64,000 nt of DNA from Tridacna crocea. Its lineage: Eukaryota; Mollusca; Bivalvia; Cardiida; Cardiidae. Positions 4,162 to 45,184 of this stretch are shown here, piece after piece. Each line of letters opens with the position of its first letter. Positions within the stretch are counted from its first letter, which is position 1. The position numbers and the translations under genes are program-made. The stretch lies in contig OX031058.1 in assembly GCA_943736015.1 (NCBI GenBank), positions 16,455,001-16,519,000 on the forward strand, in the 5' to 3' direction. The notes beneath the pieces are model-generated. The model was not told the DNA's origin. It made no database searches and saw only the letters and a list, made by a program, of their open reading frames with translations.

Positions 4162-4257
4162 CTCAAAGAAGGAGAAGACTTAGAGAAAAGCAGAGATTGG
4201 CAAGGTGGAAAAGAAAATTAAGAAAAGAAAGGAAACATCACATCCAAGCAAGGAAAG
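4162..4257 (+). CDS. Basic exon 1 (first recognised exon of the Lys/Arg-rich CTLD gene)
   Basis: The acceptor follows CTTTTTTGAAG and the donor is GTGTAT. The 96-bp exon enters and leaves in phase 1 and encodes 31 full codons, rich in Arg/Lys with RRRRLREK and KRKLRKERK stretches. It looks like the flanking basic exons and is free of recognisable repeats. There must be at least one earlier exon because it enters in phase 1 without a start codon. I searched 1-4161 by eye and found no convincing partner. Confidence 0.7.
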
Positions 4258-7200: not shown

Positions 7201-10200
7201 CTGATTACTTGAAAATGCTTGTCCGGACAACTCCTCCTACATTTTCTGTCTGATTCACTTTAAACTTGGCAGAAGTGTTCATTAGGAGTTGTAGATGTGC
7301 AAGATGCAATTTTTGTGAAAATTCTATGAAGAAAAAAGGAGTTATTGCCCCTGATTCATTTTTAAAATGCTTGTCAAGACAACTCCTCCTACAACTTCAG
7401 TCCAATTTGCTTTACACTTGGCAGAAGTGTCCATTCGGAGTTGTAGATGTGCAAGACGCAAATTTCGTGAAAATTCTATGAAGAATTACTGAGTTATTAT
7501 CCTCGATTTGACTTGAAATTGTCCGGACAACTCCTACATTTTCTGTCTGATTCACTTTAAATTTGGCAGAAGTGTTTATTAGGAGCTGTAGATGTGCAAG
7601 ACGCAATTTTCGTGAAAATTCTATGAAGAATTAATGAGTTATTGCCCCTGATTACCATTTAAAATGCTTGTCTGGACAACTCCTCCCACAATTTCAGTCC
7701 GATTCGCTTTATACTTGGCAGAAGTGTCCATTTTGAGTTGCAGATGTGCAAGACGTAAGTTTTGTGAAAATTCCATCTAGAATTACTGAGTTATTGTCCC
7801 TGATTTGACTTGAAAATGCTTGTCAGGCCAACTCCTCCTACAGCTTCTGTCTGATTCACTTTAAACTTGGCAGAAGTGTTCGTTAGGAGTTGTAGATGTG
7901 CAAGACGTAACTTTCATGAAAATTCTATGAAGAATTAATGAGTTATTGCCCCTGTGACATGAAATGTAGGGGCGGGGGTATTTAACACCTTTAGTGATAG
8001 TTATTCTAGTTTTTTTAGTCACTATCTGCATGTGCTCTTTTTTAAGAAGTGTGCCTTGGGTGATTTTCACTCATGGCTGCACAACTTGTGAAAATATCAC
8101 CGATGGTGTCCACTCGATGCAATAAATTTCAATCTTTCACCGAAAAAAATATCCTCTATGTATTTGACTATTGTATTGCTGGTATTTTTCAGGGAGAATG
8201 AGACAGAAAAAAAGATGGAGAAAGAGGAAACTTGCAAAACAGAGAAAGAGGAAAATAATGAGAAGAAAGATGTTAATGAGAAAGAGGAAACTTGCAAAAA
8301 TTAGAAAGAGAAAGATGATGAAAAGGAAAAACCTACAGAAGAAAAGAATAAGAAAGAGGAACATGAGAAAATGGAAAATTCTACAGAAGAGGAAACTTGC
8401 AAAAAAGAAACTGATGAGAAAGAAAATGCTACAGAGAAAAAGAAAACTTGCAAAACAGAGAAAAAAGAAAATGATGAGAAGAAAAATGTTACAAAGAAAA
8501 AGAAATCTTGCAAAACAGAGAAAGAGGAAAATGATGAGAAGGAAAAGGCTACAAAAGAAGAGAAGACTTGCTAAAATGAGAAAGAGGAAAATGATGAGAA
8601 GGAAAATGTTACAGAGAAAAAGGAAACTTGCAAAACAGAGAAAAAAGAAAATGATGAGGAGGAAAATGTTACAAAAAAATAGAAAACTTGCAAATCAGAG
8701 AAAAAAGAAAACGATGAGAAGGAAAATGTTACAGAACAAAAGTGAACTTGCAAAGCGGAGAAAAAAGCAAATGAGGAGGAGGAAAATGTTACAAAGAAAA
8801 AGAAAACTTGCAAAACAAAGAAAGAAGAAAATAACAAGGAAAATGTTACAAAGAAAAAGAAAACATGCAAAACAGAGAAGACTTGCTAGAATAAGAAAGA
8901 GGAAAATGATGAGAAGGAAAATTTTACTGAAGAGGAAACTTTCTAGAAGGGAACGGATGAGAAGGAAAATGCTGCAGAGAAAAAAAAAACTTGCAAAACA
9001 GAGAAAAAAGAAAAGGATGAGAAAGAAAATGTTGCAGAGAAAAAGGAAACTTTCAAAAATGAGAAAGAGAAAGATGATGAAAAGGCTACAGAAGAGAAGA
9101 TTTGCTAGAATAAGAAAGAGGAAAATCATGAGTAGGAAAATGTTACAAAACCAAAGTGAACTTGCAAAACGGAGAAAAAAGAAAATGATGAGGAGGAAAA
9201 TGTTACAGAGAAAAAGGAAGCTTTCAAGACAGAGAAAAAAGAAAATGACGACAAGGAAAATGCTACAAAGAAAAAGGAAACTTGACATACAGAGAAAAAA
9301 CAAAATAAAGAGAAGGAAAATGTTACAGCAAAACAGGAAGCTGAGGAAGAAAAAAATAATGAAAAGGAAAAAACTAGAAAAACAGAGAAGACTTGCCAGA
9401 ACACGAAAGAGGAAAATGAGAAAATGGAAATCTTTACAGAAGGTGAAACTTGCAAGAAAGAGGAAAATGTTGAGAAGAAAAATGTTACTGAGGAAGAGGA
9501 AGCATGCAAGAAGTAGAAAAAAACATGTTAGAATGAGAAAAAAGTTGTTGAAAAAAATTTCCATATTGGAAAATAACAAAATGTGGATTAGAAAAATTTT
9601 GCATAAACTGAAGAAACTTGTCAGAATGAGAGACAAAAAATGTAAGGGAAGGAGACTTTCCAAAAAAACACAAGCACAAAGGAAGCAAAAGAAAAAAAGA
9701 ATGAATACAAAACAGAACAAGAGAAAACTTGCTAAATTAAGACAGAGAAAAAAAATGCTGAAAAAGAGGAAGCTAGCAAGACTGAGAAAGAAAAATATAA
9801 GAAAAAGGAAAATGTTAAACAAAAAACTTGCTAGAATGAGAAGGAGAAAATTGAAGAGGAGAAAACTGTTACAGAAAAAGAGAAAAGAAGCCCAAAGGAG
9901 AAGAAAAAATATGATGAGAAGGAAAATAATGAATAGAAAGATAAAACTTGCTAGACTAAGAAAGAGAAAAAAGATTCAGAAAAAAAGAAAACTTGCAAGA
10001 TTAAGAAAAAGGAAAATGTTACAGAAGAAAAGAAACCAAGCTCAAAGAAGAAGAAAAATTATTATGAATAGGAAAAAAATGCAAAAGAAGAGGAAACATT
10101 TAAGAGGGAGAAAAAAAAAAGGGAGGAATTTTTCTATGAAAGAGCTTGCAAGAATGAGGCAGAGGAAAAGTAGGAAAAGGAAAATGATGCAAAGAAAGAG

Positions 10201-13200
10201 AAAATTTGATAGGTTAAGGAAAAAAAAGAAACTGTCTAAGAAAGAGCTTAAAAAAAGAATGAGGCAGAGGAAAAAAACGAAAAGAAAAATGATGCAGAAA
10301 AAAAGTAAACTTGCTAGATTAAAGAAAAAGAAAATGTCACAGAAAAAGAGAAATCAAGCGAAAAGGAGAAATAAAAATATGTCGAAAAGGAAAAAAATGC
10401 AGAAGAAGAGGAAAAACATCAAAAAGGAAGGGAGAAAAAAGAAGAGAAAAAAACTTTCAAAGAAACAGCTTCAAAGAATGAGGCAGAGGAATAAAAGGAA
10501 AAGAAAAATGATGCAGAAAAAGAGAAAACTTGCTAGATTAAAGAAAATTATGCAAAGCAACAGAAAACATGATAGAAGAAGAAAGAGAAAAAACAAAGGT
10601 AAAAAACTTTCTAAGAAAGAACTTGCAAGAGTGAGACAGAGAAAAATTAGAAAAATGAAAACATTACATAAAAAGAGAAAACTTGCTAGACTAAGGAAAA
10701 GGAAAAAGAGGAAACAAGCAAGGCAAACATTGAAGAAAAAGAGAAAACATGCCAAAAAGAGTAAGAATAGAAAGAGACAGCCTGTGAAAAAGATCATGAA
10801 GAGAAAGAAGTTGAAGGAAAAAGGAAAAGTTTCTGAGAGGAAACAGAGAAAGAATAATATTAAGAAGAAGAGTAGGAGGAAAATTGCAAGAAAAAGACAA
10901 AAGAAAGGGCAGGGTCAGAGGCAAAGAAAAATGAAGAAAGTCAGAGCTAGAAGAAAAATGAAGAAGCAATCCTTGAAAAAAAGACGAAGAAAAACTGGAA
11001 AAATGAGAAAGGGCAAACAGGAAACCAGAGGTAGAACAACCACAGTTCGGATAAGTGAGTACATGTAGTAATATCATTTGATTGAATTCCAAATAACAAG
11101 TGCCACTATACTTAGGCTAAGTAAGGAAAATAAAATGTACAAAACAACTTGAAATTAGGAAAAATTAGCATTCAACTGATTGATCATTTGTTGATGGTAT
11201 GGTGTTAAACAGTTTTCAACATTATTTCAGTTGTATTTCAGTAGCCAGTGCACCTACCCATGTTTTATGGTAGTTTTTTTTTTTACCAGTACTCCACATA
11301 ATTTTCTTTCCAACCGACTGGCTGCTTTCCCATATCAACATTGTCAAAACAATGGTCAAAAGTGGAAGGGTAAATAATCGTGTCACGCTATTATCAGTTT
11401 AGAAAGAAATTGGACAAGCCAGGGGTCGAACTGGCGACCCCATGTTCTAAAGTCCTGTATGCTTCCACTGAGCTTCCGGGGCTCAGCTTGACATTCAGAT
11501 TATTTTTTCCCCCTAATATAACAAATGTACAGGTGTCCGGAAAGTAAGGTAACACTTTTGTATACCTTTAATTTGGCTTTAGATATCAGATAAAGAGGTA
11601 GAATTAAGCATATATGTACATAAAATATGCAAGTTTTTTGTTTGGTAATTTCACTTAATTTTCTTAACAATATGCTCTTTTATAGAGATTTCAAATCAGA
11701 AGTACCTTTTTTTTGTGATTGGCGTCATTTTAGTAACTAATGACGTTTTCAATTTGATGGCCTTTTATGCTCTTTCTTTTCCAAACACATGCAATGAAAT
11801 TGTCAATCACTTTAGGACACATTTAAATATCAATGACATTGATTTACTTGATAGATTTTTAAACAACGTGTCTGTGTTGTCTGGGTAGGGATCATAAACC
11901 TTCGACCTCAAAGTAATGCAAAGGAAGAAGTTACGCAGCTTGAGGTTGGGACTGTGTGCAGGAAACGATGTTCAGCAATCTGTGACCTTCGGAATATTGC
12001 CTTGATATTTCATTTATATTATCACGGAACGTACTATATAAAATGTCTTTCACAGATTTAGATGTGTGTATACCTAAGCACCATCCAGCATGTACTAAGT
12101 TTTTAGCATATCTGGATGACTTCATCCCGACTTCGACGTCTGCGACTTCTTTCTATGGGGTTATGTGAAGTCAAAGGTCGACATTCCAAACCAGACACCA
12201 CAGATATGTCATTAAAGAACACATAAAGTGAAATCAAGAAGATTGATATTGAAATGTATGCTAATGTGATTGATAATTTTATGGTGCATGTTCGGCAAGG
12301 AAAGAGCATAATTGGCCATCACTTTGAAAACATAATTAATTATTAAAATGACGCCAATGACCAATAAAGCACTGTTGAATTAACATCTGTATAAAAAATG
12401 CAAAATGTAATGAAATTGGATTAAATTATCACACAAAAAACTTACACGTTTTATATATGTACATGTATATATATTTTTTATCTCTTTAGCTTATATTCTA
12501 AGTCAAAATATAAATGTATGATAGTGTTACCTTACTTTCCGGACACCCTGTATAAATGCATCACTTAAAAAATAATCCAAAAGAAGTATTTGTATATCCC
12601 TTTATCCCATATCAGGCATTCTATTTTAACCCTTTACCAAACAATCCCAAAGATCCTGGGGTAGAAGCCTTTTGAAAACATTGTGGGAAAAGGAGAAAAT
12701 GCTGGTAATCAGCATTTTCTCCTTTTCCCACAGTGTTTTCAAAGGCTTCTTTCTCAGGGTCATTAAAAGTTGGAAATGAGTGGTAAAGAGTTAACTATTC
12801 ACTCACAATCACAGCTTTTAGCAAATTTGACAATGAAAGCTTTTGAAAACATTTTATGGAAACCAACATTTTCTACTTTTCCATCATTTTTTCTTACTTT
12901 TTGAAAAAAAACTTTTTTTGAATCACATTTTACTTTGTCCACAGCAAATACTTCTAATTTTTCTTAATTTTTTTATGCTCCCGAAACATTTCGGGGGGAA
13001 CAGATAGTTGCCAAGCTGTGTGTATGTCCGTTCATCCATGTGTCTGTTTGTCTGTCTGTCAGTCCAAAGCCATTTCTCCATAACCCCTGGACCAAATTTT
13101 ATGAAACTTCATATCTAAACTCTTTGGAACAATGCACAAATACCTCTTTCCCGGTTTCTCAATTTGAGGCTGTGTCATGGAAAAAGGTTTTTTTTTCACT

Positions 13201-16200
13201 AATATCTCCTACATCAGTGCTCAAAACTGTGAAATTTCAAATCTGAGCTTGTTAGAACGTTGCCCAGATACCTCTTTCCTAGGTTCTCAATTACAGGCTG
13301 CGTCACAGAAAAAGGGTGCTTCATGTAAAAAATTGTTTTTCTCCTACATTTGTGCTCAAAAGTGCATGAAATTTCAAATCCGCACTTGTTGGAACATGGC
13401 CCAGATACCTCTTCCCAGGTTTCTCAAGTTCAAGTTGCATCACGGAAAAAGGGGGCTTGATGTAAAATATCGTTTTAAGCTATCTCTTCCATGGTTTCTC
13501 AATTACAGGCTGTGTCGTGGAAAAAAGAGGCTTGATGTAAAAAATGTTTTTCTCAAATATTGGGAATATCTCTAAGATAGTAATTGCCTTTTGACTTCAA
13601 TTTTTGGGGGGGCATGAACAGGTCCTTTTAGGATAAAAGAAGTGAATTTATGTTAATTTCATACATTTTATGACAAGCACTTGTTTTGGGAGCATAACCC
13701 TTCTCTGACGGCTCTTGTTTCTTTGGTAAAGGTTTGAAAATTGTTTTTAGCTCTACTGGCTTCCAGCCAGCAGAGCTTATGTCATGGCGTGGTTTCCATT
13801 GTCCGTCCATCCATCCATCTGTCCGTCCGTTAGTCTTTTTCTTGTTTACGCGATAAAGTCTTCATTTTGGTCAGATTTTCATGAAACTTACACAGCTTGT
13901 TTATCTCATCAATAGCTTTTACCCTATTGATTTTGAAAAAAATCCGACAAACAGAATGGGAAAAGTAGCCATTTCAGGTTTAAAATTTCCATTTCTTGTT
14001 TACGCGATAAAGTCAGTATTTGTGGTCAGATTTCCATGAAACTTGCAGAGTTTGTCTATGTTATCAATAGCTTCAACTCTATTGATTTTGAAAAAAATCC
14101 AACAGACAGTATGGGAAAAGTAACCATTTCAAGTTTAAAATTTCCATTTCTTATTTATGGGATAAAGTCTGTATTTGTGGTCAGATTTCCATGAAACTTG
14201 CAGAGTCTGTTTATCTTATCAATAGCTCCAACCCTATGAATTTTGAAAAAAACCCAATAAACAGTATGGGAAAAGTAGCCATTTGAAGTTGAAAACTTTC
14301 ATTTCTTGTTTATGCGATAAAGTCTGCATTTGAGGTCAGATTTTCATGAAATTTGTATAGCTTGTTTATATCATCAATAAGTTAAACCCTATTGATTTTG
14401 AAAAACATCCAACAAACTGTATGGGAAAAGTACTCATTTCAAGTTGAACAATTTCATTGCTTGTTTACATGGTAAAGTATTTATTTGTGATCAGATTTTT
14501 GTGAATTTTTCAGCTTATTTATCCCATCAATAGCTTTTTAACCCTGTTGAGTTTGAAAAAAATCAACGAACAGTAATGGAAAAGTAGCCATTTTGAGTTG
14601 AGAATGTCAATTTTTTGTCTCTTTGCATAATGAATTCCTAATGCATGCTTGATTTAAAAGCAAAATCTCTGCCAGTAGAGCATATTCAGGCCCTTCAGGG
14701 CCTTCTAGTTTGAATTCTTGACACTGTTCGTCAACAGAAATGAAAACAGGGAGAAGAAAAAGACGCTCTCTAAGGCCCAGCAGAAGAAGATGTAGATACA
14801 GGCATCTCCTTTGTGAGTTTTTAGCTCACCTGAGCACAATGTGCTCAAGGGGAGCTTTTAGGATCATCCCGTGTCCGCCATGAGTAGACCAAACTTGGCT
14901 GGAATGTTCCTTGGGAAGTCATCTTTTAAAATTGTTCTCAGATATTGGTTCCATCAAAAACTCTGGTTGCCATAGCAACCAAATGGAATTTTTTAGCAAA
15001 TTCTTTAAAAATCTTCTCCTTTTATCGGGTTTTGAAATAATTTCACAGATATGTTCCTTGGGTGACCATTTTCAAAACTCGTTTGTGAAATTTTGATCCA
15101 TCAAAAAATGTGGCTCTGGTGAATGGGGGCTACTTGCACTATACAGAAATGAAGGAATTCTTAAAAATTATTCTTCTCTGACACCGCTGGTCAGATTTTG
15201 AAATAATTTCACAGAGATATTCTTTGGGTGACCCTTTTCAAAAATTGTTCGCGAAATTTTGATCCGTCAAGAAACATGCCTCTGGTGAATGGGGGCTTCT
15301 TGCACTATACAGAAATGAAGAAATTCTTGAAAATTCTTCTTCTCAGAAACCGCTGGTCAGATTTTAAAATAATTTCTCAGGGATGTTCTTTGGGTGTCCC
15401 TTTTCAAAAAGTGTGCGCGAAATTTTGATCCGTCAAGAAACATAGCCCTGGTGAATGGGGGCTTTGTGCAGAAATGAAGAAATTCTTGAAAATTCTTCCT
15501 CTCAGAAACCGCATGTCAGATTTTAAAATAATTTCACTGAAATGTTCCTTGAATGATCCTCTTCAAAAATGTTTAAGAAATTTTGATAGGTCAAGAAACA
15601 TAGCTCTGGTGAATGGGGGTACTTGCACTATATGGAAATTAAGATACTCCTAAAAATTCTTCTTTTCTGAAACTGCTGGTCAGATTTTGAAAGGACTTTT
15701 ACATGTGACCTTTTCAGAATTGCTTGGCAAAATCATGATTTTGTTTCCAGTGTTTCAATACCTCAAAAAAAAAAAAATTGGCTATGGTCCTCTCAAAAAT
15801 TCAGGTGAGCAATCCAGGGCCATCTTGGCCCTCTTGTTTTCCATCCATGTTCAAGCAACAATATCAACACTGTTTTTATAATGTCTTTCAAATCTATAAC
15901 GTTTCCAAATATTCTGAAGCAATACCCTTTATAAAACAATCCCTGCTTTTTATGGCTGCAAAGAAGTAGCCCACTGGAAACATTGTGGGAAAAGGAGAAA
16001 ATGCTGGCAACCAGCATTTTCTCCTTTTCCCACAATGTTTTATACTCTTCCAAAATCAAGTTTCAATTTTTGAGTCATGTTTATATTGTTGACTGCAAAT
16101 GCTTTCAATTTGGACAAGCTTGATATTTCGTTGTTTGGTCAAAAGTTAAACCATGTTGAATAACTGTATAATTATTATGTACATGTTTATAATGATAAAT

Positions 16201-28200: not shown

Positions 28201-31200
28201 TCAAAGATTTTGCAATTTTCTTTCCTTTTGGTTGCCATGGCAACCAGAGTTTTGGGTGGAATTTAATCTCTTGAACAACTCTGGTAGAGCTTCACCTAAG
28301 AAACATCCCAGCCAAGTTTCATCACAATTGGCCCTGTGGTTTAGGAGGAGAAGATGTTTAAAGAAATTGTGGACGATGCACGACGGACGCCCGACATTGG
28401 GCGATCACAAAAGCTCACCATGAACACTTTGTGCTCAGGTGACCTAAAAAGGAGTAAGCTAATTATGACATTGACTCCATATTATTATGAAAGTGTGGGC
28501 TGGGATTATACAACGTGCATATTAAACTTCTCTGTGCTTTTTGTATTGTAAGCTAGAAGGTTGAAATATTTCACATAGTCTATCATAAATCCTGTGTTCA
28601 TATGCTCTTAAGATAGTTTGTCTCTAATGTTATTATAAATAACTTTATTAGAAGAATCCAGTCCATGCTATTTTGGGACAGCCCTTGTACATGTTTGCAT
28701 TTTTGTGTGTGTTTTACATTTTATTCCTTTGAGGAGAATCTGTTTGCAGCCTTTGAAGATTAGAAACATTTCATTTATATTGTATGAGCAATATACATAT
28801 TTTATTTACTGTTTGTTTTTCCAGTAAGATGCAGTGAAAATGAGTATATGTTTAAACATGGCAAATTAATAGTTCCTAAAAGATGTTCAAATGTCAAGAG
28901 AGGAAAACTAAAGAGGATGAGAAGGTTGAATGTACGAAACAAGACTGCAGGTGAGCCTCATGAACTTGTCAACATTTAGACTGTTTGATAATAAACCTTT
29001 ACCACACAATCCTGACTTTTACCAATATTGAAGAAAATGACCTTTGAAAACATTGTGAGAAAAAGAGGAAATGCTGCTTACTAGCATTTTCTCCTTTTCC
29101 AACATTGTTTTCAACCTGTCAAGATCAAATTCCATTATTTGAGTCAGATTTAAATTTTTTGTCATCTGCGGATGCTTTTAATTTTCAGGTAAAGACTTAA
29201 CGCCACAGTAAAGCCATAGAATAGGTATTTTTCACCATTTATAACTCAAAAATATAATGATGTACCAATCACAACACACATACATAAGATTGGAGAAAAC
29301 CGGAACATGTCAGTTACTGCACTGGTTGCCATGATATACATGTGCAAAAAATGCAAAGAGAAGTCTGTCGATTTCAGGGACGTCATTGATCGTTTGTGTA
29401 TATTTGAACTAGGTCTTCGAGAACGTCATGTGATTACACTGCATCTCATTAGTGCTATGTGTAGTAGACAGGACTATTGTTTACAATTCCAACATTATGT
29501 CATCGGAGAGTAAGATTGCTCATTCTGAAACCGTTTTCTTACTTAGATGTCGTTGCTGTTTGCAATGTCGATAAACTTAGTTTTTCAAGCCTAGAATGGG
29601 GACAAGACAATCAAGTGAATGAAGGGTTTGTTTTGACACTTTGATTAATCATGTGGTGTTTAAAACACTAACATGTCACTGCATACATTTACGACGAAAA
29701 ATTGGCTAATCGTCGGTGATCATTTATGTAAACAAACAGATAAAGCGGCATGGTAGGATCTGTTCTAGTTTCAAAATGCTTTTTGCTGCCACTGACTGGC
29801 GTTTCTGCGAACTGCACCTTTACATATTGTGAAAGTCATAATAATCACCATATTTTTATATGGTAAAAATGAAATTTACTTCTGTTATATAAACAGGTTA
29901 TTTATTCAGTTGTGACGCTACTGAGACTTTCAACAGTATTTAACCCTATACCAAACAATCCCTTGTTTTTACGACCCTGGGATAGAAACCTTTTGAAAAC
30001 ATTGTGGGAAAAGGAGAAAATGCTGGTAACCAGCATTTTCTCCTTTTCCCACAATGTTTTCTATCATGCTGGAAACAAATTTCAATTTTTGAGTTATGTT
30101 TACTTTGTCGTATGCAAGTGCTTCCAATTTAAACCAGTCGAAAATTTTGTTGTTGGGAAAGGGTTAAAGCATTATGCATGCAGACAGCCTGCTCAGCTTG
30201 CTTCAAGTGAAGACACATGGCTTTGGTAAAAGATAGAACAATATGGAAAAAGAAAAAAATGCTGGTTACCAGCATTCAAAAGCGGTCTTTATAGGGTCAT
30301 TTGAAACTTGGAACTGAGTGGTACAATGTTAACTTTAGTGGCTGCTACAGTTTTGTTTTAGTTTATAATAAAGACTGATAATTTCAGAAGTTTCGTGCCC
30401 AAATCAGTATACTGCAGTGGGTGATGACTGTTTCCTAGCTTCAAACGCCAGATACACTATCACGCAGGCAGCCAGCATTTGTATACATCTGAATGGCTTA
30501 CCAGTGTCAATTCACACTGCCAAGAAACAGATCAATATTATGCAGTTTTTGAATGGTAAATTAACTTTTCACATTCAAATCCAAAAAATTGGTAAATTTT
30601 TTACATTGTAATTTCTTTGTGGACAAAATCATAGCTACAAGTGAAATTGACTTTTTCAATCAGGAAAGAATAGCTGCAGTAATACAACTTACAGTAGATT
30701 TGCTCTGAAAATATTACAAAGAAGCAAAGAGTATGGATAAAAGTCTGATCTTGAAATACAGTGCCACCAAAAGCAATATTCATGATGCATGGAAATCTTA
30801 GGATTTATAATGATTGATTGATTGTATGATGATTAACACTGTTTTCAACATTATTTCATGGGGACAAGTGTACCTATCCACCCTTGCCTTGAGTCTCTCT
30901 TACTAGTGCTCTGCACAATTTTCTTTCCAAGCCACTGGCTGCTGTCCCACGTAACCATCATTGAAGATCAGCAGTGAGAGGGGAATGAATCGGATCAATC
31001 CTAATGACTATCATTAGTTCTTGGAAACAAATTTGCCAAGCCAGTGGTCAAAACTACAACCCCATGTTCTCAAGTTCTGCATGCTACCCACTGAGCTACC
31101 AGGGTACGGCTTTTGAGTTAACCCTTTACCCCATAAGGCATTTCTATTGTACCTCTAATTTATCCTAAAACCAGCAAGGATGAAGCCGTTTCTTATCTGT

Positions 31201-34200
31201 ATATGACACCTTTTGATAGCATAGAAAACATTGTGACAAAATGTGAAATTGCTTGTCACGAGCAATTTCACATTTTGCTACAATGTTTTCCAAAGGTTCC
31301 TACAAGCAATGCGCAGAAATGAGTATCTATGAAGAAAAGGGTTAATAAAGTTAAACCTGTAAATGGCAGCCACATGAGAGAACATTCAGTGCTGACCTCT
31401 TAACTTGTTTACCAAACAACAAAATTTTAGACTGGTCCAATTTGAAAGTGCTTGCAGATGCTAAATTAATTGTAACTCAATAATTGAAAATTGTTTCCAG
31501 CAGGGTAGAAAACTTTGTGGGAAAAGGAGAAAATGCTGGTTACCAGCATTTCTCCTTCTCCCACGATGTTTTCAAAAGTCTTATTTGTCAGATAAAGGTT
31601 GGGATTGTGTGGTAATGGGTTAAATGATCACATGCATAGGTTTGGCTGTATTTGTGTTCTGGAATCACAGATGAGAACAATATGTTTTACTAAGAAATTT
31701 CTGTATGACAAGTAAGATATAGAGGAAACCTTTTGTTTCAGTATAAGAACATGATTTTACATAGATAACATCATTTATTTCTGCCTAAAGGGTTGTCTTA
31801 TATTATGGCCATGATTGTCTGTCTGTCTGTCTATCATCAACTTTTTGTGTACGCAATTCCTCCTACAGTTTTCATTGGAATAAACTCAATCTTATCACTA
31901 TGAATCTATGATATATAGTTGTACATGTTATTCTTAGAATTTGGATATATACAGGCAATCTAGATTTTAACCAATCTCACTTGCAAGCCCCTTTGGGAGT
32001 ATATGTGTCGCTTTGCAAAGCTAACATTTTTTGTTTGTAAGTAGCAAAGCAATTTTAGTCAGTGGTACAATGTTCATGATTGATATAAAATACAGATTGT
32101 AAGGAATTGTGTGAAACTGATGCTTTTATTCATGTGAACATTTTAGCTTTGGGTTTCAACCAACCTCAGACATTCTGGCTGGCTCCTCTTCATTATGAGA
32201 CTGGTAGATTTTTGTGGACATCTGATAGTAGACCCATAACATACAGCAACTTTGAGGTTTGTTTTACCTGAATGAGTCAAGTCACATTGAAACAAGTTAC
32301 TTATAGCAGTATCGTAACCACTGAGGCAGCTCTTACCAATAAAGTTGGCTATGTGGGTAATGTAGATCAAGATGAGGTTGCACAAACCATGCAGTTTTAT
32401 CTTTAATTTACTCTGTCCACTTTTCTGAGACATTCTATACTCATTACGAAACGACAAACTTGTAGACGGGTCCAAATTGAAAGTACTTGCAGACGACAAA
32501 ATAAACTCAAAAATTTAAATTTGTTTCCAGCAGGCTAGAAAACATTTTGGGAAAAGGAGAAAATGCTGATTATCAGCATTTTCTCCTTTTCCCACAATGT
32601 TTTCTAAAGACTTCTATCCCAGGGTTGTAAAAACCAGAGGATGTTTGGTAAAGTGTTAAGAAAGGAATCTACATTACTGCAAGTATTTGGCTTTGTTTTT
32701 AGCGTAGAATTACATATATTGACTTTACTCAGCTCTCGGAGGGTTGAGATTTATAAGAATTATCTATACATTTATAGTAAGTTTTCTGGTAAAAAGATAC
32801 TTTCTTAAATAAACTGGCTGGCAACAGACACGTTTAAAATTCTTGGAGGGAAAATTTGCACTAGTCAACATCAGATACTTAAACATGTTAGAATGTTGTG
32901 ACATAAGACGTTTAAAAATGGGAAATTTATGGTTAATCCTTAAAGCACTTTTTACAGCTTTAATTTCCTTTGCTGCCAGTGTGCATCAAGATCAGACTGC
33001 ACATCAAGTGCAGCCTGATCTTTGATCTACAATGTTTGCTTTGCTGAAACACTTCAGACAAAAGCAACCATAAAATTGATTTGGTGTTTCATTAAGACCC
33101 ACTAGGGTTAACACCGCACTCCACACATGTCATATATGGATTGCAACGTGGGAAAAGGGGCAGGCACTCAGACATTTGTATAAAATGTCACCTCCGATCA
33201 GCAGTCCATGCAGGTTAATCCAAAATGGCACTTTCAGTTCTAATATAACTTTCTGTTTGGTGCAAGTTTACTGAGAATAAATCCCAAGGTAGATGTAAAG
33301 TGTCGTCTTGAATTAGCCTGCTCGAAGTGCACAGGCTAATCTGAGACGACGCTTTACGCAAATGTCTGAATGCCCATTAGCATGTTGCTAAGCCATATGC
33401 AGCTCTTGTTCACCTCGTGAGTCAGATAGCTTGTAGACAAAATGGATTTGCATGGTACTTCGACTTGCTGGATATGGTATATATCGTGAAGATGCGTTAA
33501 ACTACCTTTTCCGAGAGTACCACCCATATACCTGTACAGCTGTGTGGGAAGGGGATTTAACGCACCTGTAGAAAGCTTCGACCCTTGTCAGAGTTTCTGT
33601 GCAGGCTGACATGGATCGAAATTTTCACTATTTGTAAATTCCCTGCATGTCTAAACACCATTCTGCCTCATGATTCAGTCAGTTGTTAAATAAAATGAAT
33701 TTATGGACCCATTACTGTATGTGCTGACTTGCTTGGCATTATTTACCAGAGATGCATTAATCCTTTACCAAACAATCCCTGGTTTTTACGACACTGAGAT
33801 AGAAGGCTTTTAAAAAACATTGTGGGAAAAGGAGAAAATACTGGTAAACAGTATTTTCTCCTTTTCTCACAACGTTTCTCCCCTTCTGGAAACAAATTTC
33901 AATTTTCAAGTTATATTTAATTTGTTGTCTGCAAGTGGTTTGAATTTGGACAAGTCTATAATTTTGTTGTTTGGTAAAGGGTTAACCAATTACCACACAA
34001 TCTCTACTTTTGACAACCCTGAGAAAGAAGCCTTTAGAAAACATTGTGGGAAAAGGAGAAAATGCATGCTGGTAACCCTTTCACAAAACAAATTTAAAAT
34101 TTTCAGTCACCTTTATTTTATCGTCTGCAAATGCTTTCGATTTGGATAACCTAAAATTTTGTCGTTTGGTAATGAGTTAACCATTTTATTCTAGAGTGCC

Positions 34201-34492
34201 TCTCATATTTTCAATTTTTCAGACATTACCACCAAAACTGGATGAAGGCTGCTTGATAATCAACAGCTCAACTTCCAAATGGATACCCCAGTCATGTGAA
34301 AATCCAAATATTAAACATTATATGCTGTGTGAACCTTTGGAAACAAAATTAAAGGAATACAGTCAGCCGCTGAAAACAAGCACTCAAGCTCCAGCACCAG
34401 CTACATCGCCCAAACCTGTCAACTCATCCAGTGCTGGACCAAATATAGCTAGAAGATATGCAGACTTTTATCATGATTACTTTGATTATTAG
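4162..34492 (+). CDS. Lys/Arg-rich repeat protein with C-terminal C-type lectin-like domain (13 exons, 5' incomplete)
   Basis: Exons: 4162-4257, 8193-11054, 14738-14812, 19779-19862, 20784-20867, 22841-22867, 23542-23619, 24256-24339, 25221-25304, 28825-28950, 30388-30555, 32147-32256, 34223-34492. All have AG acceptors and GT donors. Eleven introns are phase 1 and the last is phase 0. Spliced, they give 1,381 codons and a stop with no internal stop at any junction. Residues about 1-1190 are strongly basic; about 33-986 come from one repeat exon. Residues about 1202-1329 form a C-type lectin-like domain with six cysteines, and about 52 residues follow. No start codon or signal peptide exon was found, so the 5' end is probably upstream of the window. 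A CTLD normally acts outside the cell, so a secreted basic matrix, adhesive or polyanion-binding protein is plausible. That role is inference: neither substrate nor tissue can be read from the sequence. Confidence 0.8.
4258..4975. other. Intron sequence, nothing recognised
   Basis: Follows the exon 4162-4257. The 81-codon frame at 4580-4825 has no repeat, phase or composition support. Confidence 0.45.
5167..5394 (+). mobile_element. Hairpin MITE, family A, nested
   Basis: A full-length copy inserted in the tandem-repeat element 4976-8010. The left end is TTAC-CCATTACCACACAATC, the right end GGTAATGGG-TTAA; centre CTGGTAACCAG. Confidence 0.85.
5720..7525 (+). repeat. 903-bp direct tandem duplication
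   Basis: The segment about 5720-6622 recurs about 6623-7525 with few changes. For example, AAGAATAGATAAG and the frames starting at 6061 and 6363 reappear exactly 903 bp later. The copies are much closer to each other than neighbouring 150-bp units are, so the duplication is recent. Confidence 0.75.
8085..8160 (+). repeat. Short repeat next to an element end
   Basis: Carries ATCACCGATGGTGTCCACTC and ATCTTTCACCGAAAAAAATA, related to 948-1037 and 39272-39350. It lies directly upstream of the giant basic exon's acceptor. Confidence 0.5.
8193..11054 (+). CDS. Giant Lys/Arg-rich repeat exon (954 codons)
   Basis: The exon runs from the acceptor TATTTTTCAG to the donor GTGAGT and is 2,862 bp, a multiple of three, phase 1 at both ends. 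It is fully open. The first 1.1 kb is a tandem repeat of exactly 60 bp, giving a 20-residue unit close to MMRRKMLQRKRKLAKQRKKK. From about 9.7 kb the unit becomes longer and more degenerate, with recurring LSKKELARMRQRK and KRKMMQKKRKLARL blocks. Lys and Arg make up most residues; Met, Leu, Gln and Ala recur at fixed positions; Cys is absent and acidic residues are very rare. Other frames contain repeated TGA and TAG codons (from ATGAGA and CTAGAA), so the open frame is not a trivial result of A-richness. Long hydrophobic open frames on the minus strand here are shadows. Confidence 0.85.
11196..11483 (-). mobile_element. tRNA-derived SINE
   Basis: The right end, read on the minus strand, has a tRNA-like A box (AGCTCAGTGGAAGC) and B box (GGTCGCCAGTTCGACCCC). 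The other end has the body motif CAGTTTTCAACATTATTTCA. A second copy with the same order lies at 30828-31113. The layout resembles SINEs I know to be common in molluscs. Confidence 0.7.
11530..12550. mobile_element. 1.0-kb TA-flanked inverted-repeat DNA transposon
   Basis: Left end CAGGTGTCCGGAAAGTAAGG matches the inverse of the right end (…CCTTACTTTCCGGACACCCTG) with one mismatch, and TA flanks both sides (11528-11529, 12551-12552). This is the Tc1/mariner-type arrangement. Two minus-strand frames (12309-12103 and 12125-11931) overlap and may be remnants of a coding region; I cannot match them to a transposase. The size is at the lower limit for an autonomous element, so it is probably non-autonomous or decayed. 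Confidence 0.75.
12626..12794 (+). mobile_element. Hairpin MITE, family A, short symmetric form
   Basis: TTAA-CCCTTTACCAAACAATCC to GGTAAAGAG-TTAA, only 169 bp. Both arms resemble the short arm of the full-length form; centre CTGGTAATCAG. Confidence 0.85.
12975..13713 (+). mobile_element. Tandem-repeat non-autonomous element (ATGCTCCCGAAACATTTCGG family)
   Basis: Opens with a CCGAAACATTTCGG hairpin and a TGTCTGTTTGTCTGTCTGTC tract. About four repeats follow with CCCAGATACCTCTTTCC and TTCTCAATTACAGGCTG. It ends GGAGCATAACCCTTCTCTGA. A related fragment lies near 24925-25060. Confidence 0.55.
13750..14709 (+). mobile_element. Tandem-repeat non-autonomous element (CTCTACTGGCTG family)
   Basis: Same start hairpin (CTCTACTGGCTTCCAGCCAG), TCTGTCCGTCCGTTAG tract, about 150-bp units and CCCTTCAGGGCCTTCTAG end as 198-913. 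Confidence 0.65.
14738..14812 (+). CDS. Basic exon of the CTLD gene (75 bp)
   Basis: Lies between CGTCAACAG and GTGAGT, phase 1-1. It encodes 24 full codons, MKTGRRKRRSL followed by RPSRRRCRYRHLL, and carries one Cys. It sits in a 110-bp gap between two tandem-repeat elements (ending near 14709 and starting near 14821), so it survived insertions on both sides. Confidence 0.75.
14821..15838 (+). mobile_element. Tandem-repeat non-autonomous element (TTAGCTCACCTGAGC family)
   Basis: Begins TTAGCTCACCTGAGCACAAT and ends GGGCCATCTTGGCCCTCTTG. Units of about 150 bp carry CTCTGGTGAATGGGGGCT and GGTCAGATTTTGAAATAATT. An inverted relative runs off the window end at 63329. Confidence 0.65.
15921..16149 (+). 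mobile_element. Hairpin MITE, family A
   Basis: Left end decayed (CCCTTTATAAAACAATCCC); right TTAA at 16146. Centre CTGGCAACCAG in a long stem. Confidence 0.8.
16150..17241. other. Intron sequence, mostly unrecognised
   Basis: A decayed hairpin relative may lie near 16360-16560 (GAAAACATTGTGAGAGAAAG). I see no supported exon; the weak candidate at 16234-16269 is listed among the rejected items. Confidence 0.4.
17242..17467 (-). mobile_element. Hairpin MITE, family A, inverse orientation
   Basis: TTAA-CTCATTATCTTACAACAA, long arm first, centre GTGGTTACCATC. The right end is decayed. Confidence 0.75.
17468..18337. other. Intron sequence, nothing recognised
   Basis: Short frames on both strands only, with no splice-bounded basic exon and no known repeat. 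Confidence 0.4.
18338..18566 (-). mobile_element. Hairpin MITE, family A, inverse orientation
   Basis: TTAA at both ends, 229 bp. The centre CTGGTTACCAG lies in a near-perfect stem (GAAAACACTGTGGGAAAAGG). Confidence 0.9.
18999..19226 (-). mobile_element. Hairpin MITE, A arms with a B-type centre
   Basis: TTAA at both ends. The outer arms belong to family A (GAAAGAGTTTGCAGACGAC), but the centre is GCTCGTTACGAGC as in family B. Confidence 0.85.
19277..19500 (-). mobile_element. Hairpin MITE, family A, inverse orientation
   Basis: Left TTAA-CTCCTTACCAATCAACAA; centre CTGGTTATCAG; the right end (GTCATAAAGA) has lost TTAA. Confidence 0.8.
19779..19862 (+). CDS. Basic 84-bp exon of the CTLD gene
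   Basis: Acceptor TGTATTTCAG, donor GTAAGT, phase 1-1, 27 full codons. The product is Lys/Arg-rich with some acidic residues (QYKKRKKERAERFRKL) and is predicted helical. It is one of four exons of exactly 84 bp in this gene. Confidence 0.8.
19993..20075 (+). mobile_element. tRNA-like sequence, probably a SINE head
   Basis: The A-box-like TTAGCTCAGTGGTTAAGG and the B-box-like GGCTTCGAATCCTGCCC are about 30 bp apart on the plus strand. The flanks do not pair into a good acceptor stem, so a functional tRNA gene is unlikely. Confidence 0.45.
20429..20646 (-). mobile_element. Hairpin MITE, family A, inverse orientation
   Basis: TTAA at both ends. The centre is shortened: one stem side reads GAGAAAATGATGG and runs directly into TTTCTCC. 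Confidence 0.85.
20784..20867 (+). CDS. Basic 84-bp exon of the CTLD gene
   Basis: Acceptor TTTCTCTTACAG, donor GTAAGT, phase 1-1, 27 full codons (KQRAQRRKANP, then IREVQKLKQLAQ). Same length and phase as 19779-19862, which suggests exon duplication. Confidence 0.8.
21094..21672 (+). mobile_element. Tandem-repeat non-autonomous element, 3'-truncated (CTCTACTGGCTG family)
   Basis: Typical start hairpin and GTCCGTCTGTCCGTCCG tract with three to four units, but no CCCTTCAGGGCCTTCTAG end. Confidence 0.6.
21820..22050 (+). mobile_element. Decayed hairpin MITE, family A
   Basis: ATCCTTTACCAAAGACT to TTAGTTTGGTACAAGG. The centre is heavily diverged. Confidence 0.5.
22063..22291 (+). mobile_element. 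Hairpin MITE, family A
   Basis: TTAA at both ends, 229 bp; centre CTGGTAACCAG with a near-perfect stem of 30 bp or more. Confidence 0.9.
22355..22660 (+). repeat. Dispersed repeat (GTTATGGCTCTGGTTGTC family)
   Basis: A microsatellite-like GTCTATCTGTCCATCTGTCC head, then CCTGCAGTTTTCATAGAATA and ATATGTCACTCTGCAAAGC. A diverged copy is at 31795-32045. Confidence 0.5.
22841..22867 (+). CDS. 27-bp micro-exon of the CTLD gene
   Basis: Acceptor TTTCTTTTTCAAAG, donor GTAAGT. It encodes LRQRRREG plus split codons, phase 1-1. It is very short, but both splice sites are strong and phase and composition match the neighbours. Confidence 0.65.
23076..23241 (+). mobile_element. Hairpin MITE, family A, short symmetric form
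   Basis: TTAA at both ends, 166 bp, with arms like 12626-12794 and a partly deleted centre (GAAAATGCATTTTC). Confidence 0.85.
23542..23619 (+). CDS. 78-bp exon of the CTLD gene
   Basis: Acceptor CCAAATTTCAG, donor GTAAGT, phase 1-1, 25 full codons (HISPKMVRQYSTLL, then SKHMWLQRLKK). It is less basic than its neighbours. Confidence 0.7.
23828..24054 (-). mobile_element. Decayed hairpin MITE, family A
   Basis: GCTTTTTACCACAACAGAATT to TGTGATAAAAGGTTA with a diverged stem (TTGGTTACCCACATTTTCTC). Confidence 0.55.
24256..24339 (+). CDS. Very basic 84-bp exon of the CTLD gene
   Basis: Acceptor TTTTTATACATAG, donor GTGAGT, phase 1-1, 27 full codons. Most residues are Lys, Arg or His (KKKYKWRRRYQYHRRRNRRR), with several aromatic residues. 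Confidence 0.8.
24451..24649 (+). mobile_element. Hairpin MITE, family A, internally deleted
   Basis: TTAA at both ends. The left stem arm is missing; CTGGTTACCAGCATTTTCTCC remains. Confidence 0.8.
25221..25304 (+). CDS. Probable 84-bp exon of the CTLD gene with a weak donor
   Basis: Acceptor GGAATTTTCAG is good. The frame is open through TNQNHQKNVLRRGRSNN. A donor GTCATT at 25305 gives exactly 84 bp and phase 1, matching three other exons, but the site departs from the GTRAGT consensus. Composition is Asn/Gln/Arg-rich rather than Lys-rich. Transcript data could move the 3' border or show the exon to be skipped. Confidence 0.55.
25337..25614 (-). mobile_element. Hairpin MITE, family A, with a duplicated stem piece
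   Basis: Left TTAA-TCCTTTATCAAATGACAA. One complete stem (25453-25509) is followed by a second GTGGGAAAAGGAGAAAAAGC arm. Confidence 0.7.
25615..26328. other. Intron sequence with a decayed MITE fragment
   Basis: About 25650-25785 resembles the long arm of family A (AACCCTTTCAAAGGTAAATC). I see nothing else. Confidence 0.4.
26708..27509 (+). pseudogene. mariner-family transposase pseudogene
   Basis: Frame 26708-27022 encodes the N-terminal helix-turn-helix region (VIEFCVDLKMTQAQMFKQL, later IAVRQIAETVRISKSSVY). After a gap that lacks the first catalytic Asp block, the C-terminal catalytic part appears in two shifted frames. QDNAPCHTS is near 27216-27242. HSPVLAPLDYAFFPYLKSQL lies at about 27304-27363. 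The element-encoded part stops near 27509, where another element is inserted; the last residues of the longest frame come from that insertion. Frameshifts and the missing block make it inactive. Confidence 0.85.
27509..28450 (-). mobile_element. Tandem-repeat non-autonomous element nested in mariner
   Basis: Read on the minus strand it starts near GGTCACCTGAGCACAAAG and ends GGACCATGATGGTCCAC. Units of about 170 bp carry CTAGTTTCAGAGAAGAAG and CCAGGGGCATC. The last residues of the mariner frame are encoded by its end, so it truncated the transposase. Confidence 0.65.
28825..28950 (+). CDS. 126-bp linker exon before the lectin-like domain
   Basis: Acceptor TTTGTTTTTCCAG, donor GTGAGC, phase 1-1, 41 full codons. 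The first half has two cysteines 19 residues apart (RCSENEY and PKRCSNV). The second half is basic (KRGKLKRMRRLN). The cysteine pair may form a small disulfide loop ahead of the CTLD. Confidence 0.75.
28990..29200 (+). mobile_element. Hairpin MITE, family A
   Basis: ACCTTTACCACACAATCC to GTAAAGACTTAA; centre CTGCTTACTAGC. Confidence 0.75.
29201..29939. other. Intron sequence, no supported feature
   Basis: A 68-codon plus frame at 29307-29513 has several cysteines (MCKKCKEK), but no usable phase-1 splice borders. Confidence 0.4.
29940..30167 (+). mobile_element. Hairpin MITE, family A, best-preserved hairpin
   Basis: TTAA at both ends. Positions 29995-30061 are a perfect inverted repeat of 33-bp arms around one unpaired base (CTGGT-A-ACCAG). 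The stem would be in the pre-mRNA of the CTLD gene. Confidence 0.92.
30240..30333 (-). mobile_element. Hairpin MITE fragment, family A
   Basis: TGCTGGTTACCAGCATTC then TATAGGGTCATTTGAAACTT; one half only. Confidence 0.55.
30388..30555 (+). CDS. C-type lectin-like domain, N-terminal half
   Basis: Acceptor GATAATTTCAG, donor GTAAAT, phase 1-1, 55 full codons. The opening CPNQYTAVGDDCF fits a long-form CTLD: a Cys pair at the N-terminal hairpin, then first-helix residues with a third Cys in ITQAASICIHLNG, and a second helix around TAKKQINIMQFLN. Spacing is normal for the family. Confidence 0.85.
30828..31113 (-). mobile_element. tRNA-derived SINE, second copy
   Basis: Shares the body (TTTTCAACATTATTTCA, CACAATTTTCTTTCCAA, CCACTGGCTGC) and the minus-strand tRNA-like head (TAGCTCAGTGGGTAGCATGC) with the copy at 11196-11483. 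The B box is more decayed. A hairpin MITE abuts it at 31118. Confidence 0.65.
31118..31345 (+). mobile_element. Hairpin MITE, family B
   Basis: TTAA-CCCTTTACCCCATAAGG to GAAAAGGG-TTAA. Centre TTGCTTGTCACGAGCAA in a long stem. Confidence 0.88.
31400..31623 (-). mobile_element. Hairpin MITE, family A, inverse orientation
   Basis: TTAA at both ends; centre CTGGTTACCAG. Confidence 0.88.
31795..32045 (+). repeat. Dispersed repeat (GTTATGGCTCTGGTTGTC family), diverged copy
   Basis: Shares GTCTGTCTGTCTATC, CCTCCTACAGTTTTCATTGG and ATGTGTCGCTTTGCAAAGC with 22355-22660. Confidence 0.45.
32147..32256 (+). CDS. C-type lectin-like domain, WIGL-region exon
   Basis: Acceptor GTGAACATTTTAG, donor GTTTGT, phase 1 in and phase 0 out. 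It encodes 36 full codons with TFWLAPLHYETGRFLWTSD, where FWLAP takes the place of the CTLD WIGL motif and FLWTSD is the usual following strand. No EPN or QPD triplet follows before the next exon. Confidence 0.85.
32437..32659 (-). mobile_element. Hairpin MITE, family A, inverse orientation
   Basis: ACTCATTACGAAACGACAAA to GGTAAAGTG-TTAA; centre CTGATTATCAG. Confidence 0.8.
33139..33395. mobile_element. Dispersed inverted-repeat element, family C
   Basis: Begins GGCACTCAGACATTTGTAT, ends AAATGTCTGAATGCCC, and contains TTAGCCTGCTCGAAGTGCAC. Copies also at 57262-57484 and 61520-61755. Confidence 0.6.
33757..33985 (+). mobile_element. Hairpin MITE, family A, first of a TTAA-sharing pair
   Basis: TTAA at both ends; centre CTGGTAAACAG. 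Its right TTAA (33982-33985) is also the left TTAA of the next copy. Confidence 0.88.
33982..34180 (+). mobile_element. Hairpin MITE, family A, second of the pair, deleted centre
   Basis: TTAA at both ends. The right half of the stem is lost. It ends 43 bp before the last exon of the CTLD gene. Confidence 0.85.
34223..34492 (+). CDS. C-type lectin-like domain, C-terminal part, and tail (last exon)
   Basis: Acceptor TTTCAATTTTTCAG, phase 0, stop TAG at 34490-34492. It encodes 89 residues. The first 37 complete the CTLD: EGCLII, SKWIPQSC and YMLCE supply Cys 4, 5 and 6. The WND calcium site is replaced by SKW-I-P. The tail is Pro/Ser/Thr-rich, then ends ADFYHDYFDY, a Tyr/Asp cluster. I saw no transmembrane segment. 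Confidence 0.85.
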   Translation, partial: TLPPKLDEGCLIINSSTSKWIPQSCENPNIKHYMLCEPLETKLKEYSQPLKTSTQAPAPATSPKPVNSSSAGPNIARRYADFYHDYFDY

Positions 34493-34970
34493 TGAATGTC
34501 ACTTTTTTTGTTTTGTGAAACAAAGCTCTATTTTGTTTCAGAATTCTTGATGAATCAACAAGACAGTGATAAATTTTTTTTTATTATTTTTGTGATCTAA
34601 TAATCTGTTATATCTATATATGTTGTTACCATTTAGCTGAATCTTCAAATTGCATCAGTTAGTTCTAATATTATGAACATCTGAAGGATCTTCTTGGACA
34701 GAAAAGAATAACACTTAACCCTTATCCTGCTATGTAACTAAAATTGAATTATTAATTTTAAATTCGATATTGATAACCCAAATATTGCTGTTTCAAACAT
34801 AGGTTTTCGGGAATGATATCTCAATAATGGACAGTGTAGATCAAAGATCAGACTGCACATTCTGAGCAGTCTGATCTTTATCTACTCTGTCCACAAAAGG
34901 TCAGCTTGTCGCGCTTACCAGGCAAAGGGTTAAATTGGTCTGCTGATTGTTAGCCAAGTATCAGTAAAAG
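34493..34970. other. Probable 3' UTR and downstream sequence of the CTLD gene
   Basis: No clean AATAAA directly downstream. A palindromic AGATCAGACTGCACATTCTG with its inverse lies at about 34848-34880, and similar pieces occur near 32985 and 58500. Confidence 0.35.
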
Positions 34971-35200
34971 TTAACCCTTTACCAAGGTTCAAGGCTTTTA
35001 TTACCCCTGTTCAAGGATTCTATTAGCCTAAGGAGGAAGGCTTTAGAAAAAAAATATGGAGAAAGGAGAAAATACTGGTATCCAGCATGTTCTCCTTTTT
35101 TCATGATGTTTAGATTCTGTCAGCCAAATCCCAGTATTTGAGACATACTATTTGTTATCTGCATATGCTATCAAAATGGACCAGTCCAATTTTTTTTTTC
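34971..35200 (+). mobile_element. Decayed hairpin MITE, family A
   Basis: Left TTAA-CCCTTTACCAAGG. The centre and right end are diverged. Confidence 0.6.
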
Positions 35201-35920
35201 AGGTAATAGATGGAAGTAAAAAGATGAAAGTGCAGATGCAGATGCCTGTAACGAGAAATTTGCTTCTTTTCCTATCTATGAATACATGTATTTTACAGGC
35301 ATTTAGTCATAAAGTAACTTCTACCGATTTATTACAACATTGATGTATAAATTTTGCATTTATATGTACTGTTCCAAATCTTTAAGTTATTTTATGTTTT
35401 TTGTTGGAGAACTAGCATTCTGCTGAACTTTTTAATGCCATATTTATTTTTGCAACTGAAAACAGCCATTTGATATGGAACATTTCCGTTTTTTTTTTTT
35501 AATTCAAATGCACTGATAAAATATGGCACTGAAAGGTTGAATATTATTTTTACCAATTGTCTTCAATACCATACCAATTTTCATGACAAGCATTCTGATA
35601 CGTTTACACAAAAGTTGTCAGCCAGTCAGATAACTAGTCTGGAAATTCATTATTGGAACGGCTGAGAAAAAGAGAAAGGATACATGGATGCAGGTGGCTA
35701 CCTTGGTCTTATATAATGTTACAACCAGTAGATGACTGTTTGTCATGCCACTGACATTGCAGAGAAAGGGGAAATTGTATTTGATAAGCAATATCTCCCT
35801 TTACCACAAAACTTTAGGTTGTACTAAATCTTACCAAAAAGATCAAAATGTTAAACATGTCTGTATTGAGAGAATTTTTCATATCACAAACCAAATGTGA
35901 TTGGAATCAGGATTTTTTCT
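35201..35920. other. Non-coding stretch, nothing recognised
   Basis: AT-rich, no long frame or known repeat. Confidence 0.4.
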
Positions 35921-36149
35921 TTAACCCTTTACCCCATAAGGCATTTCTATGGTATCTCTAACTGGCCCTATAGAACAGCTAGGATGAAGCCGTTTCTTAT
36001 GTGTAAAAGACATCTTTTGATAGTGTAGAAAACATTGTGGCATAAGGTGAAATTGCTCGTCATGAGCAATTTCACCTTTTGCCACAATGTTTTCCAAAGG
36101 CTCCTACAAGCAATTCATAGAAATGATTATCTATGGAGTAAAGGGTTAA
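35921..36149 (+). mobile_element. Hairpin MITE, family B
   Basis: TTAA at both ends, 229 bp; centre TTGCTCGTCATGAGCAA. Confidence 0.88.
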
Positions 36150-36990: not shown

Positions 36991-37216
36991 TTAACTCATT
37001 ACCAAACAACACTATTTTAGGTTTGTCCAAATAAAAGCATTTGTAGACAAACTAAAAGTGACTGATGAAAATTTGGTATTGTTTTGTGAGGAGTAGAAAA
37101 CATTGTGGGAAAAGGAGAAAATGCTGGTTACCAGCATTTTCTCCTTTTCCCACAATGTTTTCTAAAGTCTTCTTTCATAGAGTCGTCAAAAATAGAGATT
37201 GTTTAGTTATTGGTTG
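36991..37216 (-). mobile_element. Hairpin MITE, family A, inverse orientation
   Basis: Left TTAA-CTCATTACCAAACAACA. The stem GAAAACATTGTGGGAAAAGG is near perfect around CTGGTTACCAG. The right TTAA is lost. Confidence 0.85.
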
Positions 37217-45020: not shown

Positions 45021-45184
45021 AAAAGGACAATTCTCTTGAAAACATTTGCAGGTAACAAAAAAGATGTGAAAAATCAAAATTTTTTTTTGGGAGGGGTTTG
45101 AAAACATTGTAAGAAAAGGAGAAAATGTGGTTATTTCCTGCAATGTATTCAAAAGCTTTCTTTCTCAGGGTCATTTTAGATCAG
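45021..45184 (-). mobile_element. Hairpin MITE fragment between units, copy 2
   Basis: Very similar to 43584-43745 and 47285-47448 across the whole fragment and into the flanking element ends. Confidence 0.7.

Follow-up and report, generated by a model that had tools for sequence, protein, structure and literature searches.

The window and its upstream flank very probably hold one gene of ~50.6 kb, in which 19 exons, joined by prediction, encode a protein of ~1,837 residues with a signal-peptide-like start, a PAN domain, ~1,550 Lys/Arg-rich residues, a C-terminal C-type lectin-like domain (CTLD) and a Tyr/Asp-rich tail. The exons and their open frame are present in the DNA, and from them we infer the transcript. 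Our working interpretation, held with a little less than even confidence and drawn by analogy, is that the product may be a secreted polycationic protein that gives cohesion to an extracellular glue, a mucus or an organic matrix.

The window is the whole 64,000-nucleotide stretch of Tridacna crocea DNA that was analysed (C3:16455001-16519000). A window coordinate w equals C3 position 16455000 + w, zero and negative numbers denoting the upstream continuation. The sequence was extended by 80 kb on the upstream side and 20 kb on the downstream side (164 kb in total) and scanned in all phases, and the genome searched comprised 1,048,827,098 bases in 31 contigs.

Exon chain and surroundings

The 19 exons give a single open frame from ATG to stop of 5,514 bases and 1,837 codons, in which the sole stop is the last codon and the phases are compatible across all joins. 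An earlier note on this DNA had described 13 exons and 1,381 codons in one frame; the single open frame was recovered, but the counts changed to 10 exons and ~1,343 codons within 4162-34492, with weak extra candidates at 15751-15804 and 23542-23619. The basic exon that the note had placed at 4162 was found again by splice-site and frame scans, with alternative donors at 4257 (phase 1) and 4285 (phase 2). The gene starts upstream of this exon, since the all-phase scan of the added 80 kb gave further exons; nine are predicted between -16145 and -1455, extending the gene span from -16145 to 34492 (C3:16438855-16489492). The predicted exons are as follows.

-16145..-16094, plus strand: first exon, ATG start, phase-1 end, reads MAEFILSLPFTIILLQI; from splice and signal scans
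-14933..-14730, plus strand: upstream exon, picked by eye
-13472..-13285, plus strand: upstream exon, picked by eye
-11851..-11794, plus strand: upstream exon, from splice-site/frame scan
-10241..-9904, plus strand: upstream exon, from all-phase scan
-9314..-9081, plus strand: upstream exon, from all-phase scan
-7918..-7814, plus strand: upstream exon, from all-phase scan
-5019..-4873, plus strand: upstream exon, from all-phase scan
-1608..-1455, plus strand: upstream exon, from all-phase scan
4162..4281, plus strand: exon 10 of 19, basic, phase 1-1, K+R 46%; from splice-site and frame scans
8193..11054, plus strand: exon 11, the giant exon, 953 whole codons, 56% K+R, imperfect 60-bp/20-residue repeats, AG/GT borders, phase 1-1
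14738..14812, plus strand: exon 12, basic, phase 1-1, weak splice scores
19779..19862, plus strand: exon 13, basic, 84 bp, phase 1-1
20784..20867, plus strand: exon 14, basic, 84 bp, phase 1-1
24256..24339, plus strand: exon 15, basic, 84 bp, phase 1-1, K+R 67%
28825..28950, plus strand: exon 16, phase 1-1, a two-cysteine segment and a basic segment directly before the CTLD
30388..30555, plus strand: CTLD exon a, phase 1-1, Pfam and PDB matches, acceptor score below zero
32096..32256, plus strand: CTLD exon b, phase 1-0, Pfam and PDB matches, lowest acceptor score of the chain
34223..34492, plus strand: CTLD exon c, P/T/S-rich segment and Tyr/Asp C-terminal tail (ARRYADFYHDYFDY), stop codon at 34490-34492

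In order, the predicted protein consists of the signal-peptide-like exon, the PAN domain, a Lys-Pro linker, ~345 residues with helical amphipathic periodicity, the 953-codon K/R exon, the short basic exons, the CTLD and the Tyr/Asp tail. Splice sites were scored with home-made matrices, by which four acceptors (PAN -3.3, linker -0.5, 30388 -2.5 and 32096 -5.1) and one donor (linker -0.5) fall below zero. The 3' end of the gene was left unplaced because 34493-37000 contains no AATAAA and only three ATTAAA, all beyond 36 kb.

The clustering of basic exons, like the giant open frame and the candidates in the intron that follows it, is above chance. At thresholds of K+R >= 0.28, length 75-400 and summed splice score >= 4, with no phase constraint, 11 basic loci fall on the plus strand within the 50.7 kb of the gene span, namely 10 chain exons and a locus at 31504 that resembles a dispersed repeat. 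The controls, which total 357.3 kb-strand and combine the span's minus strand with both strands of 63.8 kb upstream, 49.5 kb downstream and four 10-kb stretches, hold three; these thresholds were fixed after the first exons had been seen. Looser settings (K+R 0.25, 60 bp) gave, over the 164 kb, seven off-chain loci on the plus and eight on the minus strand beside the 10 chain exons.

Several other features lie in or near the window. A CRE octamer, TGACGTCA, one of two in the 164 kb, is found at -16224, upstream of the first exon. A probable convergent neighbour gene occupies 60015-60242 (minus strand) and continues beyond the window to ~70174 (minus strand), with a Ser-rich open frame of 1,032 residues at 65331-68426. 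One of its exon candidates, SVPHYNESLQVIQLAARIQRMRRRK, may resemble KIF26/VAB-8 kinesins; Pfam gave nothing above cutoff for this 28-residue piece. Tandem arrays with units of 145-167 bp lie in introns and flanks at 5677-7954 (also 304 bp), 13838-14618, 21175-21670, 27565-28211 and 42089-46407, and the segment 28000-28450, which overlaps the end of one array, has many genome copies at 90-93% identity among the best 40 candidates scored. By eye, a dispersed palindromic element, probably a MITE, recurs across the window as variants of GAAAACATTGTGGGAAAAGGAGAAAATGCTGGTAACCAGCATTTTCTCC (e.g. near 29990-30065, 31505-31570 and 33815-33880). A degraded mariner/SETMAR-like transposase fragment, also seen by eye, lies at 26705-27543 (plus strand) within the large intron; its first piece gave weak helix-turn-helix matches below the Pfam cutoff and its second piece none. 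The window yielded no RNA families at gathering score and no tRNAs.

The basic region

The 953-codon K/R frame reported earlier at 8193-11054 is present as described, bordered by AG and GT and in phase 1 at either end. Its residues are K (32%), R (24%), L (9%), M (8%) and Q (7%), with less than 2% E+D, 1.2% Gly and 0.1% P. Low complexity, 56% A and tandem repeats near 60 bp are what a non-coding purine-rich satellite, open by chance, would also display, and to this explanation we attach next to no probability. The K/R frame contains no stops, against 90 and 46 in the other plus frames, and in Markov chains of order 1 to 4 trained on the exon (300 sequences each) the best of three frames averaged 39 to 51 stops, with a minimum of 25. 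The imperfect repeats also keep frame: when 47 consecutive 60-base blocks were each paired with their best other copy, 46 of the best offsets were divisible by three, and the 37 pairs with at least 42/60 identities differed at 81, 135 and 176 first, second and third codon positions. Between internal copies the synonymous fraction of differing codons was 0.31 (100/318) in the K/R frame vs 0.05 and 0.17 in the other frames, and the 218 of 318 non-synonymous differences comprised 45 K-R swaps, 94 exchanges of K/R with another residue and 79 others. The stop-free frame, the frame-keeping offsets and the synonymous enrichment thus identify the giant exon as coding sequence under selection, not strictly conserved. 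Satellite DNA was rejected on the stop counts, the simulations and the synonymous enrichment, and the K/E frame was discarded for its 46 stops.

Basic residues dominate well beyond this exon. Residues 87-1639 (1,553 residues) include 760 K+R vs 33 D+E, and the whole predicted protein, calculated at 228 kDa, carries a net charge of +724. Residues 150-494 show strong 100-degree hydrophobic periodicity (z 7.5 vs 100 shuffles), a pattern consistent with amphipathic helices. In the giant exon this periodicity is absent (z -2.7), and the peak among nine angles tried lies at 60 degrees, corresponding to a hydrophobic residue about every six. AlphaFold without an alignment modelled the giant exon alone as helical at a mean pLDDT of 53.4, too low for evidence or a fold search. 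Neither the giant exon nor the CTLD gave an NCBIfam family at E<=1, and Pfam returned nothing for the giant exon at E<=10.

Searches of the animal's own genome with the CTLD, the helical exons, the PAN-plus-linker segment and a 227-residue piece of the giant exon each recovered this locus but no close second copy; the search scores the best candidates only, and its counts for repeats are lower bounds. Weaker matches were obtained for PAN-plus-linker on contigs C2 (E 0.0069) and C17 (E 0.0138) and for the CTLD on C14 (E 1.4e-4), all others having E > 0.1. Among the chance-level matches (E 4.1) was a locus in the C13:21886060 region with an open frame given as 4,848 residues, of which the locus read covers 771; it is rich in Leu, Asn, Ser, Thr and Asp and has repeated LNKT-like motifs.

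Terminal domains and the intron between them

Secretion had been proposed in the earlier note, which suggested extending the window upstream for a signal-peptide exon. The extension yielded a candidate with an ATG start at -16145..-16094, followed by a PAN domain, and the protein is probably secreted. The signal exon is only moderately secure: it is the least secure call of the chain, and the signal scan also yields chance matches (10 on the plus strand, 6 on the minus strand). A candidate at -4771 was dropped, as the chain runs on upstream of it in compatible phase. PAN_1 (PF00024) matches residues 30-74 at E 1.9e-7 and 31.3 bits (cutoff 21.4) over profile positions 16-58 of 76, and the exon has four cysteines, including the core cysteines of PAN/apple domains. 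In PDB, the PAN segment gave weak mixed matches only, the best at E 0.22 to an unrelated protein and one to hepatocyte growth factor at E 0.48.

At the other end, the earlier claim of a complete six-cysteine CTLD stands as regards the CTLD exons and the stop codon, and needs amending in that the three exons hold eight cysteines and Lectin_C stays below its cutoff (E 0.0019, 19.3 bits vs a curated 22.6). In the Pfam scans, PAN_1 is the match above cutoff and Lectin_C the one below. Six of the eight cysteines follow, by our reading of the translation, the canonical long-form pattern, with an extra CxxxC. Seven PDB sequences, all of which we take to be CTLD proteins, match the domain at E<=1, the best of them at E 0.0033. 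Its nearest other locus in the genome, on C14, is itself a clear Lectin_C (E 7.9e-10), and the two share FW, G.F.W, C and W.PQ.C positions. In this relative, in the C14:21905542 region, one open frame runs from a CTLD into a long mucin-like stretch rich in Thr. EPN/QPD and WND are the sugar-binding motifs of calcium-dependent C-type lectins. Inspection of the translation found neither, with WIP at the position expected for WND, and the predicted domain is for this reason CTLD-like rather than a canonical sugar-binding lectin.

The weakest point of the earlier model was the link from 11054 to the CTLD. The 17.8-kb gap between 11054 and 28825, together with two CTLD exons whose acceptors score below zero, could indicate that one gene encodes a secreted PAN-basic protein and stops after the basic exons while the CTLD belongs to a second gene, but we consider this improbable. 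The gap (11055-28824) contains, on the plus strand, four basic candidates with phase 1 on both sides (exons 12-15; K+R >= 0.33), and none on the minus strand or in the other plus-strand phases; phase 1-1 basic candidates are likewise absent from both strands of 34493-64000. In 200 dinucleotide shuffles of the intron the mean was 0.02 candidates and the maximum two, so that none reached four, and stricter splice thresholds left three candidates vs none in all 200 shuffles. The partly basic exon 28825-28950 stands directly before the CTLD and enters it in the same phase 1. For a separate CTLD gene with its own signal exon, scans of phase-1 donors from 11 to 30.4 kb gave just two candidates: 21938-22046, in which the hydrophobic run comes late and is preceded by lysines, and 28784-28823, which encodes 13 residues and ends at the exon-16 acceptor; neither is convincing, and this option was rejected within that scope. 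The earlier proposal of a large basic region fused to a CTLD in one gene is thus supported by phase-compatible exons, basic candidates in the joining intron and the lack of a convincing second signal exon between them, the exon joins being predicted.

Possible function and known systems

In the cohesion model, the long K/R stretch would condense with or crosslink sulfated glycans, acidic glycoproteins or other polyanions. Binding to sugars, nucleic acids, mineral or mucins, as suggested in the earlier note, may likewise occur. Specific protein or glycan contacts may come from PAN at one end and the CTLD at the other, which would anchor the polymer at both ends, and the C-terminal tyrosines might allow cross-linking. 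If expressed as predicted, the protein would be, to our knowledge, among the most highly charged secreted proteins of animals.

Other roles have to be weighed against a cohesive one. CTLDs are common in molluscan immunity, and dense basic sites together with the amphipathic periodicity of residues 150-494 (z 7.5) would suit a secreted immune polycation, in which the K/R region would bind bacterial surfaces or nucleic acids, possibly freeing cationic peptides by proteolysis, and PAN and CTLD would serve recognition. We regard this role as unlikely, though worth keeping in mind: 100-degree amphipathicity is missing from the 953-residue region (z -2.7), whose peak is at 60 degrees, no cleavage signal is conspicuous among the ubiquitous basic pairs, and immune effector families often expand, whereas no close second copy was found for the four segments tested. 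An intracellular nucleic-acid-binding or nuclear protein would account for the protamine-like charge, and would require the moderately secure signal exon to be spurious. It is very improbable, as PAN scores above the Pfam cutoff, and the disulfide domains PAN and CTLD belong to secreted or surface proteins. A shell or other biomineral matrix protein is suggested by analogy with the SM50 subfamily of sea urchin spicule matrix proteins, described in extracts of PMC2909932 as alkaline, with a CTLD and a repeat domain; SM50 itself (~50 kDa) is required for spicule formation. The combination of CTLD, repeats and alkaline isoelectric point is shared, but many SM50-subfamily members have Pro-X-Y repeats according to these extracts, whereas the repeats here are K/R, with 0.1% P in the giant exon, and the charge of +724 over 1,837 residues is extreme. 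We give a biomineral role a rather low probability.

For the glue or matrix interpretation speak the cohesive flatworm adhesive protein Mlig-ap1 as precedent and the charged repeats of a limpet glue protein, P-vulgata_4, as far as the extracts of PMC6410801 and PMC7333891 describe them. Against it, the K/R region is low in glycine, unlike the GRK repeats of flatworms, and the usual partners of glue proteins according to the published extracts (vWD, C8, TIL, EGF and TSP) gave no Pfam match in the first 534 residues, in the giant exon or from exon 16 onward, the 110 residues of exons 12-15 lying outside the scan. A more specific version, possible if doubtful, is a separate molluscan polycationic cohesive protein, single-copy and of about +724, whose 953-residue K/R tract, hydrophobic at about every sixth position and capped by PAN and CTLD, would coacervate with sulfated glycans into a matrix or glue, and which would have arisen convergently to Mlig-ap1 or be a very distant relative of it.

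Known proteins resemble the predicted one to different degrees. Eosinophil major basic protein is likewise basic and has the CTLD fold, but it is small, its CTLD is itself basic and its pro-region acidic. No bivalve protein combining PAN, a basic region and a CTLD was found in the open-licence literature searched, as judged from titles and the starts of abstracts. The SM50 subfamily, as excerpted in PMC2909932, is a looser parallel than Mlig-ap1. Among molluscs, P-vulgata_4 is a glue candidate with Arg/Lys repeats as here, but the extracts describe only two short, positively charged ones at its C-terminus (PMC7333891). The flatworm proteins Mile-ap3 of Minona ileanae (PMC6745481) and Tmed-ap3 (PMC9229212) share with the present protein a long K/R-rich low-complexity polycation; both come from adhesive systems and are rich in Gly, Tmed-ap3 in His and Ser as well, and the extracts describe them without CTLD or PAN. 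In Minona and in the polyclad of PMC9229212 the K/R part is a separate protein, ap3, and the authors of the Minona extract suggest that K/R regions could have come about in a mucus protein by enrichment or have been joined to it by fusion (PMC6745481).

The closest parallel found is the very large secreted protein Mlig-ap1 of Macrostomum lignano, which overturns the earlier statement that no named family couples such a basic region to a lectin-like domain. According to extracts of PMC6410801, it has 5,407 residues, more than 3,600 of them in K/R regions whose pI is 14.4-14.6, and besides a C-type lectin domain it contains vWD/C8/TIL and 17 EGF modules. Knock-down of the two adhesive proteins of this species showed both to be essential for adhesion, and flatworm attachment is impaired by the negatively charged sugars heparin or fondaparinux (PMC6410801). 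The K/R content of Mlig-ap1 hampers tryptic mass spectrometry (PMC6410801), and proteins of this kind are easily overlooked for the same reason, as well as through repeat masking, which can hide them. The present protein shares with Mlig-ap1 a very large K/R-rich region, and a putative CTLD, with Lectin_C below cutoff, lies in the same predicted frame. In the extracts, however, Mlig-ap1 carries K/R at both ends with its domains mid-protein, whereas here PAN and CTLD cap the ends; a PAN domain, present here, goes unmentioned for it in those of PMC6410801; and its flanks are Gly, Arg and Lys rich (PMC9229212), compared with K/R/L/M/Q and 1.2% Gly in the giant exon. Because the other modules, the domain order and the glycine content differ, the present protein is best described as one that would work like Mlig-ap1, not as a member of its family, the comparison being one of published descriptions rather than sequences. 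If expressed as predicted, it would carry the flatworm-glue plan of a K/R polymer plus CTLD into another phylum, allow the electrostatic-cohesion model of flatworms to be tested in an animal unrelated to them, and provide a natural polycation as a scaffold for wet adhesives.
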